In this document: in pieces, positions 1 to 44,753 of the stretch
Numbering within the stretch: the stretch's first letter is position 1
Layout of the letters: every line of letters starts with the position of its first letter
NCBI RefSeq assembly: GCF_041821025.1
Contig: NZ_JBGUAY010000005.1
Span: forward strand, 310,001-374,000
Length of the DNA stretch: 64,000 nt
Direction of reading: 5' to 3'
Origin: Egicoccus sp. AB-alg6-2
GTDB lineage: Bacteria > Actinomycetota > Nitriliruptoria > Nitriliruptorales > Nitriliruptoraceae
Notes under the pieces: generated by a model
Told to the model about the DNA's origin: nothing
The model's database searches: none
Seen by the model: only the letters and a program-made list of their open reading frames with translations
Position numbers and translations under genes: made by a program

Positions 1-3000
1 GCTCGCGTTCCACGAAACGGCGCTCACCACGGCCGGCGTCCTGCAGCAGTGCGGACACGTCGAGTGTGGCCGCCCGCCCCTCGAGGTCCTGCCGCGCCTC
101 GAGCAGGTCGACCCGTCCGATCGCCTCGTCCAACGAGCGCAGTCCCATGCCGGCCAGGAGGTGGCGGACCTCCTCGGCGACCATCAGCAGGTAGCCGGCC
201 ACCATCTCGGGCGTACCCGCGAACTTGTCGCGCAACTCACGGCGCTGGGTCGCGATGCCGACCGGGCAGGTGTCGCGGTGACAGGCCCGGGCCATGATGC
301 ACCCCTCGGCGAACAGCGCGGCGGTGCCGAAGGCGTACTCGTCGGCGCCGAGCAGGGCGGCCAGGAGCACGTCGTGGCCGGTCTTGAAGCCGCCGTCGAC
401 ACGCAGCTTGACGCGGCCCCGCAGCCCGTTGACACGAAGCGCCTGCTGAACCTCGGTCAGGCCGAGCTCCCACGGCATGCCGGCGTGCTGGATGGACGAG
501 AGCGGCGACGCGCCCGTGCCCCCGTCGTTGCCCGAGATGTGGATCGAGTCGGCCAGGGCCTTCGCGACGCCCGCGGCGACGGTGCCGATGCCGGCGGCCG
601 CCACGAGCTTGACGTCGACCTGCGCCAACGGGTTGACCTGTTTGAGGTCGAAGATCAGCTGGGCGAGATCCTCGATGGAGTAGATGTCGTGGTGCGGCGG
701 CGGACTGATCAGCGTGACCCCGGGGGTCGTGTGGCGGAGCCGCGCGATCTCGTCGGTCACCTTGTGCCCGGGGATCTGCCCGCCTTCGCCAGGCTTGGAG
801 CCCTGCGCCATCTTGATCTGCAGCAGCTCGGCGTTGGCGAGGTAGGCGGGCGTCACACCGAACCGTCCCGAGGCCACCTGCTTGATGCGGCAGTCGAGGT
901 CACGGGCACTTCCGCGGGTGCGGAAGCGGGCCGGATCCTCACCACCCTCGCCGGAGTTGGCCTTACCGCCGATCATGTTCAGGGCCGCCGCCAGCGTCTC
1001 GTGCGCTTCGGCGGACAGGGCCCCGTGGGACATCGCCCCGGTCGAGAACCGTCGCGCGATGCTCCGCGCGGACTCCACCTCGTCGACCGCGATGGACGGG
1101 CCGGACCCGAGGGGACGCAGGAAGTCACGCGGATAGGCGACGGGGCGGTCGCGGACCGTCTCGGAGAAGCGCTGGTACAGGTCCCACCGCCCCTGTTCAG
1201 CCGCACTGCGCAGCAACGCGGCCGTCTGCCCGTCGACCAGGTCGCGGCTACCGTCCAGCGCCTCGGCCCCGGCACCAGCGCCCGCGAGCGTGAAGGGGTC
1301 GGTGCGTGGCTTGCGGCCGAGACCGAGCACGTCGTGCAGGGCGTCGATGACCGGCTTGTTCATGTCGTGGTACTCGCCGCCCTTGCGCCACTTGATGATG
1401 CCGGGACTGCTGAGGTCGGGCAGGTCGTCGACCGGGGCGCCGTACGCCTCGGCGTGCTGCGCGAGCACGTCCTCGGCGAGGTCGTCGAGGGTCAGGCCGC
1501 CCAACTTGGAGACCGTGCCGGTGAAACAGCGCTCGATCACCTCCGGACCGAGCCCGAGCGCCTCGAAGGTCTGGGCACTGCGGTAGCTGTCGAGCACCGA
1601 GATGCCCATCTTCGACATGATCTTGAGGACGCCGTCCTCGACGGCGTTGCGGTACCGCTCCTGCGCCACGTTCGCCGTCGGGTTGTCCCCGCCGATGCGC
1701 CCCTCGTCGGCCAGGTCGGCGATCGTCTGCAGCACCAGGCGGGGCACGATCGCGTCGGCGCCGTAGCCGAGCAGCGTGGCCGCGTCATGGGTCTCGCGGG
1801 CCTCGTCGGTCTCCGCGACGATCGAGGTCCGGGTGCGCAGCCCGACGTCGAGCAGGTGCTGGTGCACGGCGCCGACGGCGAGCAGGATCGGGATGCGGCA
1901 GCGGTCGTCGTCGGTGCCACCGTCGGAGACGACCACGATGCCCGCGCCGGCCCGCACGTGCGCCTCCGCCTCTTCGCCGAGACGGTCGAGCGCGGGGCGC
2001 AGGCCCCCAGTGCCTTGCGCGACGGGGAAGGTGGCGTCGACCGCCTGCACGCCGAACGGGATGTCGGGGTCGAGCACGATCCGTTGCAGTCCCTCGGGAA
2101 ACAGGAAGAACGAGCCGAGTTCGAGCAACCGGGCCGCCTCGGGACGCTCGGTGAGGATCGGCTGTCGCGGTCCCAGGTAGGTGCGCAGGCTCATGACCTG
2201 CGACTCGCGGTAATGGTCGATGGGCGGGTTGGTGACCTGGGCGAACCGCTGCTTGAGGTAGTGGGAGACGGGCCGGCGCACGTGCGAGAGCGGCTCGATG
2301 GGGGTGTCGTCACCCATCGACGAGATGGTCTCCTTGCCCTGCGTCGCCATGGGCCGCAGGATGGAGATCACCTCCTCCTTGGTGAACCCGTACGCGAGCT
2401 GGCGTCGCCGCAGGTCGGCCGGTGCCGTCTCGACCGGCAGGCCCGCACGCACCTGACGGACGTGCTCGTGCAGCCAGACGCCGTAGGGCGCCCGACGCCC
2501 GAGCTGGAGCTTGACCTCGCGGTCCTCCTGCAGCCCGCCCTCGTCGGGGTCGACGCACAGCATCTGTCCGGGTCCGAGACGCTCGCGCCTGATCGCCCCC
2601 GCATCGCCGGTGGGTACGGCGCCGACCTCGGACGAGGCGACCACGACGCCGTCCTCGCACACGTGGTAGCGCAGGGGACGCAGGCCGTTGCGGTCGAGCG
2701 TCGCACCCACGCGCCGCCCGTCGGTGAAGATCAGCCCGGCCGGCCCGTCCCACGGCTCGACCAGGGTGGCGTGATACCGGTAGAAGTCGCGGATCTCGGG
2801 GTCGAGGTCACGGGCACCCTCCCAGACCTGCGGGACGAGCATGGCCTGCGCGTGCCGGACGTCGCGGCCGCCGTGGACCAGCAGCTCCAGCGCCTGGTCG
2901 AGCTTGGCCGAGTCGGACTGCTCGTCGTCCACGACCGGCACCAGCAGCTGAGGGTCGACCCAGTCGCTGCCGTCCACGGACAACGATCCCGCGACGAGCT

Positions 3001-3880
3001 GACCTTCCCGGGCACGCATCAGGTTGCCGTTGCCGGCGATCGTGTTGATCTCGCCGTTGTGACACAGCATCCGGAACGGCTGCGCCCGCTCCCAGCTCGG
3101 GGTGGTGTTGGTTGAGAACCGCGAGTGGAACACCGCCAGCGCCGAGGTGTAGCGCTCGTCACCGAGGTCGGGATAGAAGACGTCGAGTTGGTCGGCGTTT
3201 GCCATCGCCTTGTAGACGACCGTCACGAACGAGCACGAGGCGGCGTAGAAGCGTGCTCCGGCTGCTTCGCACGTCTTGCGGGCGCGTCGACGCAACCGAT
3301 AGGCCAGGCGTTCGAGCTCCCGGTCGTCGCGGGCGCCACCCGGATCGGGACGCACGAACAGCGCCTGTTCCAGTGCCGGCTGGACGGCGGCCGCCAGCTC
3401 GCCGATGACCTCGGGGCGGTTGGGGACCGGCCGCCAGCCGACGAACCGCACGCCCTCGGTCGCGCAGGCCGCCTCGAACGCCGCTCGGGCCGTGGACCGG
3501 TCCGCCCGTGCCGCTTCGTCGTCCCCCGGACGCAGGAACAGAAATGCCAGTCCCAAGTCGTCGGCGGCGACGTCGTCGCTGCCCAGTTCGGCGGCCCACG
3601 TCGCGGCCAGCTGACGCGGAATCTGGGTCAGCACACCGGCACCGTCACCGGATCGACCGTCCGCGGCGACGGCACCACGATGCTCGACGCCCGTGAGTCC
3701 CTGCAACGCCATCGCGACGATGGAGCGGCGTGGCTGGCCGTCCACGTGCGCAACGAACCCGATGCCGCAGGCATCTCGCTCGGCGGTCGGGTCGAAGGCG
3801 ACGGCCCTGGCGGCGCGCCGCCGGGCGACGTCGGCATCGACGGCGTTCGACAGCGCGGGGCGCGACGAGGTCTCGGACAC
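1..3880 (-). CDS. gltB: Glutamate synthase (GOGAT) large subunit, 3' end outside the window
   Basis: Makes glutamate from glutamine and 2-oxoglutarate in the cytoplasm, together with a small subunit (gltD) that is not visible here. The GTG start is set by AGGAG nine bases upstream. Residues 2-37 look like the usual cleaved propeptide, because the class II glutaminase nucleophile is Cys38 in DACGIGFVA. Further on are the FMN/synthase domain, with GGNDGGTGASPLSS-type and IPGHKVTDEIARLR motifs, and the [3Fe-4S] cysteines in CIMARACHRDTCPVG near residue 1195. About 1293 of the usual 1500 or so residues are visible; the C-terminal beta-helix domain is cut off by the window edge. A divergent region with a terminator-like leader hairpin precedes it. 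Identification is secure. Confidence 0.96.
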   Translation of the reverse strand, partial: MSETSSRPALSNAVDADVARRRAARAVAFDPTAERDACGIGFVAHVDGQPRRSIVAMALQGLTGVEHRGAVAADGRSGDGAGVLTQIPRQLAATWAAELGSDDVAADDLGLAFLFLRPGDDEAARADRSTARAAFEAACATEGVRFVGWRPVPNRPEVIGELAAAVQPALEQALFVRPDPGGARDDRELERLAYRLRRRARKTCEAAGARFYAASCSFVTVVYKAMANADQLDVFYPDLGDERYTSALAVFHSRFSTNTTPSWERAQPFRMLCHNGEINTIAGNGNLMRAREGQLVAGSLSVDGSDWVDPQLLVPVVDDEQSDSAKLDQALELLVHGGRDVRHAQAMLVPQVWEGARDLDPEIRDFYRYHATLVEPWDGPAGLIFTDGRRVGATLDRNGLRPLRYHVCEDGVVVASSEVGAVPTGDAGAIRRERLGPGQMLCVDPDEGGLQEDREVKLQLGRRAPYGVWLHEHVRQVRAGLPVETAPADLRRRQLAYGFTKEEVISILRPMATQGKETISSMGDDTPIEPLSHVRRPVSHYLKQRFAQVTNPPIDHYRESQVMSLRTYLGPRQPILTERPEAARLLELGSFFLFPEGLQRIVLDPDIPFGVQAVDATFPVAQGTGGLRPALDRLGEEAEAHVRAGAGIVVVSDGGTDDDRCRIPILLAVGAVHQHLLDVGLRTRTSIVAETDEARETHDAATLLGYGADAIVPRLVLQTIADLADEGRIGGDNPTANVAQERYRNAVEDGVLKIMSKMGISVLDSYRSAQTFEALGLGPEVIERCFTGTVSKLGGLTLDDLAEDVLAQHAEAYGAPVDDLPDLSSPGIIKWRKGGEYHDMNKPVIDALHDVLGLGRKPRTDPFTLAGAGAGAEALDGSRDLVDGQTAALLRSAAEQGRWDLYQRFSETVRDRPVAYPRDFLRPLGSGPSIAVDEVESARSIARRFSTGAMSHGALSAEAHETLAAALNMIGGKANSGEGGEDPARFRTRGSARDLDCRIKQVASGRFGVTPAYLANAELLQIKMAQGSKPGEGGQIPGHKVTDEIARLRHTTPGVTLISPPPHHDIYSIEDLAQLIFDLKQVNPLAQVDVKLVAAAGIGTVAAGVAKALADSIHISGNDGGTGASPLSSIQHAGMPWELGLTEVQQALRVNGLRGRVKLRVDGGFKTGHDVLLAALLGADEYAFGTAALFAEGCIMARACHRDTCPVGIATQRRELRDKFAGTPEMVAGYLLMVAEEVRHLLAGMGLRSLDEAIGRVDLLEARQDLEGRAATLDVSALLQDAGRGERRFVERE

Positions 3881-3978
3881 GTGGCGGTACTCCTGCTCGA
3901 CCGGCGCCGAAGGCACCGTTGGGACGTCGGGCCGACGCCGAGCAGGGCCACCGAGGTGGTCCGGGAAGTGGCGGACGC

Positions 3979-4018
3979 AACAGAAAACGGCGCCCCGCTG
4001 GAGGTCGGGAGCGCCGTT
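3979..4018 (-). terminator. Terminator-like hairpin in the gltB leader (possible attenuator)
   Basis: Read leftward, 8 bp (AACGGCGC/GCGCCGTT) plus an inner CCCG/CGGG form a stem with one bulged base and an 8-nt loop, followed directly by TTTTCTGTT. Runs of four T are very rare in this GC-rich window. It lies about 100 nt upstream of the gltB start and just downstream of the predicted transcription start. No other leftward gene upstream needs a terminator. Attenuation of gltB is an inference. Confidence 0.6.
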
Positions 4019-4029
4019 GCTCGGTCCGA

Positions 4030-4059
4030 AGCGTATCGGCGGCCCGGCCCCGCTGTCCA
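4030..4059 (-). promoter_or_regulatory. Probable gltB promoter
   Basis: On the minus strand TGGACA (4059-4054) is followed after 18 bp by TACGCT (4035-4030). This is a good match to sigma-70 -35/-10 elements and would give a leader of about 140 nt that begins with the hairpin at 3979-4018. Confidence 0.5.
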
Positions 4060-37453: not shown

Positions 37454-37855
37454 GGGAGGAGCCGGCCGATAAGCCGGATTCTGTCCCGCCGGTGCGTTAC
37501 CGCGTCCGGCGGGGGCGACCATCTCTCTGGGGCGACGGTCTCCCGACGCCTCGTTGCGGCCCACCTGGGACTGACGGACGGCGCGAGCGCCATCCGGTCG
37601 GGCGGGCAACCCTGTCCCTGCTTGGCCTTGCTCCGGGTGGGGCTTGCCGAGCCACGACGGTCACCCGCCGTGCTGGTGAGCTCTTACCTCACCGTTTCAC
37701 CCTTACCGCGAACACGCCGCGGCGGTTTGTTTTCTGTGGCGCTTTCCACGCGTTCCCGCGCCTGGGCGTTACCCAGCACCCTGCCCTGAGGAGTCCGGAC
37801 TTTCCTCACCGCACGGCGAACCGTGCTGGCGCGGCCGCCTGGCCGACTCCTCCCG
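37454..37855 (-). ncRNA. rnpB: RNase P RNA, bacterial class A
   Basis: The catalytic RNA that trims 5' leaders from tRNA precursors, about 400 nt. The conserved 5' block GAGGAAAGTCCGGACTCC reads leftward from 37809. The 3' P4 strand ACAGAATCCGGCTTATC reads from 37484. The ends, CGGGAGGAGTCGGCC and GGCCGGCTCCTCCCG, pair as helix P1, which sets the boundaries to within a few bases. A TACCCT -10 element lies just upstream. The gene fills most of the gap between hemE and the DUF4442 gene. Confidence 0.95.
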
Positions 37856-44679: not shown

Positions 44680-44753
44680 GGGCGGTTAGCTCAGCTGGCT
44701 AGAGCGCCTCGTTTACACCGAGGAGGCCGGGGGTTCGAGCCCCTCACCGCCCA
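44680..44753 (+). tRNA. tRNA-Val, anticodon TAC
   Basis: A 74-nt cloverleaf. The acceptor stem GGGCGGT pairs with ACCGCCC, the anticodon stem-loop is CCTCG-TTTACAC-CGAGG with anticodon TAC, and the T-arm contains GGTTCGAGC. The discriminator base is A; CCG follows, so CCA is not encoded and must be added. It lies between the Nif3-like gene and the convergent pgi. Confidence 0.95.

Follow-up and report, generated by a model that had tools for sequence, protein, structure and literature searches.

The leader of gltB, the gene encoding the large subunit of glutamate synthase, presents two overlapping hairpins in a 64,000-nucleotide stretch of DNA from Egicoccus sp. AB-alg6-2 (hereafter, the window): a small hairpin with a six-base loop and a terminator-like hairpin that uses part of the same sequence. 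Both are conserved before gltB in related genomes, the loop of the small hairpin is constrained, and the element is associated with ANTAR genes and with genes of nitrogen assimilation. We propose, with a probability of roughly two in three, that the gltB leader is a natural transcription attenuator of the ANTAR type that works with a single hexaloop and controls glutamate synthase.

The gltB gene lies on the minus strand and extends beyond the window (positions 1–3880; Pfam domains GATase_2, Glu_syn_central, and Glu_synthase), with a GTG start codon at 3880 and the Shine-Dalgarno sequence AGGAG at 3890–3894 (minus strand). The promoter predicted in an earlier note on this DNA is present as quoted: a −35 box TGGACA (4054–4059, minus strand) and a −10 box TACGCT (4030–4035, minus strand) are separated by 18 bp, and TGGACA or TCGACA is found at the same position in most family members. 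The small hairpin (4022–4009) starts 7 nt after the −10 box. We inspected a sample of 80 leaders, composed of leaders from the class and others fetched from further families, and a TAnnnT motif was observed 6–14 nt 5′ of the element in at least 60 of these 80 leaders of relatives, most commonly at a spacing of 7–8 nt. The gene on the other side of the gltB leader encodes an enoyl-CoA hydratase and is divergent (plus strand). The statement of the earlier note that no leftward gene lies upstream is thus borne out, and the hairpin at 4018–3986 does not end another leftward gene, which rules out a read-through terminator.

The GC-rich, terminator-like hairpin reported in the earlier note is confirmed by its sequence and by its folding energy (−22.4 kcal/mol; z = −3.0 relative to shuffled sequences). 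Its stem runs on the minus strand from 4018 to 3986 (AACGGCGC-U-CCCG...CGGG-GCGCCGUU) and is followed by the T-rich tail TTCTGTT (3985–3979); no other candidate stem with a T-tract on that strand of the window is as stable. T-runs had been described as scarce, and TTTT indeed occurs only four times, counting both strands together, in a window of 72% GC; the distance to the GTG, given as about 100 nt, was measured at ~105 nt from the end of the terminator. Neither the window copy nor much of the window's family has a perfect T-tract, and at least four T within the 8 nt after the stem were found in 42 of 79 leaders. A simple scan for promoter and terminator consensus sequences found 2 sites against 2.1 expected in shuffled sequences, a number not above chance. 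The consensus scan alone therefore does not set this site apart, and the case for the gltB hairpin rests on its conservation. A pairing of the 3′ arm of the terminator with AACGGTGCC near the Shine-Dalgarno sequence of gltB (3912–3920) is possible in the window, but we set it aside since no equivalent was seen by eye in the relatives.

At the predicted 5′ end of the transcript, the small hairpin (GAGCAACGGCGCTC; 4022–4009, minus strand) consists of a 4-bp stem, GAGC/GCUC, closing the six-base loop A1 A2 C3 G4 G5 C6, and folds alone with a free energy of −4.0 kcal/mol. Its loop and the 3′ strand of its stem are also part of the 5′ arm of the terminator, so the two structures are mutually exclusive. 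The competing terminator hairpin was formed in 79 of the 80 leaders, and the exact 14-mer GAGC[AACGGC]GCUC was present in 47 of them.

We further analyzed the conservation of this arrangement among related genomes. The gltB gene was located by protein search in 57 of 61 of them, and a DNA search using only the leader matched 23 genomes, most matches near gltB being centred on the hairpin. Of 50 gltB leaders inspected within the class, 47 showed the same arrangement: a TAnnnT motif, mostly 7–8 nt, a GAGC[RAYGGN]GCUC core, the arm that pairs with it, and a tail that is T-rich to varying degrees. The exact 14-mer was found once per genome, at gltB, with the exception of a duplicate contig end (G021) and of one further copy in the Egicoccus genome itself (G000:C13, L091), which is devoid of a terminator arm and was taken to be a chance occurrence. 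In an alignment of 36 sequences (A1), changes on both sides were found in 7 of the 12 pairs of the terminator stem, and the covariation score was reached by none of 500 shuffled alignments. For the small hairpin the covariation signal is weak (35 of 500 shuffles), as the inner pairs are invariant; its outer two pairs present double changes (A-U, C-G, and G-C replacements). The earlier note had asked for a search of relatives' gltB leaders for conservation of the stem, and the outcome is strong conservation with compensatory changes. Its suggestion that nitrogen assimilation is controlled by an attenuator or a ligand-sensing leader gains support from these results and from the exclusive 5′ hairpin that it had missed. 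Because the conserved stem covaries and a second, mutually exclusive hairpin precedes it, we favor attenuation, and it is highly probable that this attenuation operates through the two exclusive hairpins.

The loop of the small hairpin is itself constrained. Across the 80 leaders, A2 and G4 were found without exception, and position 1 was A in 62 leaders and G in 18. The variants observed in distant families (AAAGGC, AACGAC, AAAGAC, and AAUGGC) all keep A1, A2, and G4, and position 3 can be A or U (e.g., AAAGAC and GAUGGC). About 19 distant leaders have a terminator that starts only at loop position 4 or beyond, and positions 1–3 are therefore dispensable for termination; these leaders still present AA[C/A/U] or GAC there, indicating that the loop itself is under selection. 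We take this pattern of conservation as a sign that a trans-acting factor recognizes the loop. A CsrA-type site (AnGGA) was rejected, as the loop presents ACGGY and not GGA. The mini-ykkC (guanidine-II) motif was considered because of the ACGG loops; that motif has two hairpins with ACGR loops, whereas the gltB leader has one hairpin, whose loop carries A or U at position 3. No Rfam family matched above its gathering threshold in this region of the window or in 8 related loci. Elsewhere in the window, Rfam identified a class A RNase P RNA (37454–37850, minus strand) and a tRNA gene (44680–44753, plus strand).

The properties of the element are those of the targets of ANTAR proteins in most respects. 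An ANTAR target has been defined as a short stem that carries a hexaloop with A1 and G4 and overlaps an intrinsic terminator, and such targets were reported before genes for glutamate synthase, glutamine synthetase, and ammonium and nitrate transporters (Ramesh et al. 2012, PMC3369931). The window copy, GAGC[AACGGC]GCUC, presents a hexaloop with A1 and G4 on a stem of at least 3 bp, the loop overlaps the 5′ arm of the terminator, as the 79 of 80 leaders and the covariation indicate, and the genome encodes ANTAR proteins, with eight ANTAR domains. As in the dual-hexaloop attenuators (EutV/eut, NasR/nasF, and AmiR/amiE; PMC3369931), the hexaloop carries G4 and mostly A1, overlaps the 5′ part of the terminator, and stands before nitrogen genes. 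However, known ANTAR attenuators require two hexaloops (PMC3369931), whereas the gltB leader has a single one, at or near the 5′ end of the transcript, and no recruitment hairpin P1. A pair of hairpins with a short linker was not found in the gltB leaders, and additional AxxGxx hexaloops were no more frequent there than expected by chance (3 vs. 3.6 upstream; 6 vs. 5.4 downstream); given the position of the predicted start site, most leaders lack the room for a second one. About a fifth of the gltB elements also carry G1, whereas A1 is required in EutV. We therefore do not file the gltB element as a standard member of the ANTAR targets: the second hexaloop is absent, and G1 is a further departure.

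Starting from the class, a covariance model (R1) yielded strong matches in other families of the phylum, and the gltB element extends to six or more further family groups. The matches inspected from the top of the R1 list lie directly 5′ of gltB and are followed by terminators such as TTTTTTTTGTTT or TTTTTTATG. Other covariance-model matches in actinobacterial genomes, away from gltB, were ordinary hairpins or coding sequence and were discarded. A scan of ~85,000 genomes for the exact pattern identified five stretches outside the phylum: before an ammonium transporter (Amt) gene in a Bacillota MAG, before a type III glutamine synthetase (GSIII) in two Lachnospiraceae (Bacillota MAGs), before a Limnobacter gene whose product Pfam identifies as a nitrate-binding protein, and in Chitinispirillales (L147), where the same 14-mer is accompanied by a perfect terminator. 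The product of the gene downstream of L147 resembles what we take to be a circularly permuted ATP-grasp protein, and the genome contains one ANTAR gene. In two GSIII leaders of Pullilachnospira (L156 and L164), the tip of the terminator forms a second hairpin, UGGG[AAUGGU]CCCA or UGGA[CAUGGU]UCCA, which might be a second, downstream ANTAR loop. The Limnobacter leader (L157), whose 5′ neighbors are a nasT-like ANTAR gene and a nasS-like gene, carries an upstream hexaloop, GGGUGAUC[AAUGUU]GAUUGCCC, and a second hexaloop identical to the window copy, GAGC[AACGGC]GCUC, that overlaps the terminator. Judging by its sequence, this leader is arranged like a canonical dual-loop leader, its second hairpin being the same as the gltB element; the upstream hexaloop is absent from the gltB leaders.

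ANTAR genes were detected in 208 of the 396 genomes of the phylum sample. Outside the class, 24 of the 27 genomes carrying the element possess an ANTAR gene, relative to 145 of 330 other genomes (Fisher test, P = 4 × 10−6, shared ancestry being ignored). All five non-actinobacterial carriers possess exactly one ANTAR gene, as opposed to 0 of 14 control genomes, and no ANTAR gene was detected in the genomes of close gltB relatives that are devoid of the element (G274, G246, G216, and G313). The three carriers without an ANTAR match are G243, G281, and G301, and two of these three genomes are less than 70% complete. Two genomes are ANTAR-positive without the element (G162 and G220). The element-less gltB leaders of these two genomes (L183 and L186, respectively; family f45) present another strong inverted repeat near the start codon, which in L183 is CCCGCCGG...CCGGCGGG. 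Reading of open reading frames indicated that the sole ANTAR protein found resembles PdtaR in seven genomes; in G061 the sole one is a GAF-ANTAR protein. In two genomes, G086 (L187) and G072 (L188), a PdtaR-like response-regulator-ANTAR gene lies directly 3′ of gltB on the same strand. An ANTAR protein is likely to be the factor that acts on the gltB leader, its binding and its antitermination being inferred.

These observations can be assembled into a mechanism. Transcription would start at or just 5′ of the GAGC hairpin. When nothing is bound, the loop and the 3′ strand of the hairpin would pair with the downstream arm, the terminator would form, and transcription would stop ~45 nt in, leaving a short leader RNA of ~45 nt as the terminated product. 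An ANTAR protein, most likely a phosphorylated response regulator of the PdtaR type, would bind the AACGGC hexaloop; the small hairpin would then be held, the terminator would be blocked, and gltB would be transcribed.

If an ANTAR protein is involved, a single hairpin is probably sufficient, albeit with somewhat less assurance than for the involvement of the protein itself. The receptor NmPAL from Nakamurella carries an ANTAR domain. This light-controlled RNA-binding protein recognizes single small RNA hairpins sequence-specifically (PMC11381354), as we propose for gltB, but the known targets of NmPAL are selected aptamers and not a natural leader. In structural work, EutV was found to bind single hexaloops in isolation, with contacts to G4, and the minimal binding motif was redefined as one hexaloop (PMC8934654). 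A natural attenuator with a single loop is thus plausible.

Alternatively, the same attenuator could be operated by a protein of another kind or a small molecule bound to the small hairpin, for instance as a mini-riboswitch sensing glutamine or 2-oxoglutarate. This explanation, which we regard as unlikely, would account for a loop that departs from the strict ANTAR consensus in allowing G1 and keeping A2 invariant, for the presence of only one hairpin in the leaders, and for the three carriers in which no ANTAR gene was detected. However, 14 nt would be a very small size for an aptamer that binds a metabolite, the element matches no Rfam family, and both the identical hairpin in the NasT leader and the association with ANTAR genes favor an ANTAR protein. 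Ligand sensing is therefore less likely at the gltB leader than a trans-acting ANTAR protein. It is considerably less probable still that the hairpin is a constitutive stabilizer of the 5′ end or an unregulated early terminator, or that the 45-nt RNA is the main product as an sRNA: either case agrees with a stable 5′-terminal hairpin and with the weak tails of some members of the window's family, but the leaders encode two exclusive structures, the conserved loop is not needed by the terminator, and the gltB element always stands before gltB, without independent copies. Finally, the 14 bp conserved at the start site might be a DNA operator for a repressor, the hairpin being incidental, as the 14-mer is partly palindromic and coincides with +1 or lies close to it in almost every leader of the class, but this is very improbable given that the downstream arm covaries with the 14-mer at a variable distance, that U-tracts come after the stem, and that the asymmetric centre, namely the loop, ranks among the best-conserved parts.

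Two leaders present the hexaloop hairpin without a T-tract. A second, distantly related gltB of the Egicoccus genome (L061; G000:C5:242200-242900, minus strand) is preceded by GGC[AACGGC]GCC after TAGGAT, and its pairing arm, AGGGGUGCCGU, seems to include the Shine-Dalgarno sequence and the start codon. Similarly, the pairing arm of the gltB element in L019 (G010), CGGAGCCGCCGTG, includes the Shine-Dalgarno sequence and the GTG start codon. This suggests a possible translational version of the same switch.

In the open-access literature, we found no paper that describes the gltB element, or ANTAR in connection with gltB or with a single hexaloop. The survey of ANTAR-target RNAs in actinobacteria (PMC8164766) covers the same phylum, with ANTAR proteins that include PdtaR-type regulators; it called for a pair of stem-loops, and neither gltB nor glutamate synthase is named in the main text. 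The chances are about even for the broader reading, in which the gltB leaders of actinobacteria are natural single-hexaloop ANTAR attenuators: an ANTAR regulator in its activated state, probably PdtaR, would reach the lone hairpin near the 5′ end without a recruitment hairpin and couple glutamate synthase to its signal, and the leaders would be an ancient, previously unrecognized target of PdtaR. If our interpretation is correct, surveys that require two hairpins miss targets, and leaders with one hexaloop would constitute a direct natural test of why ANTAR attenuators need two. The PdtaR-type ANTAR regulators of actinobacteria would also gain a concrete target in central nitrogen metabolism.
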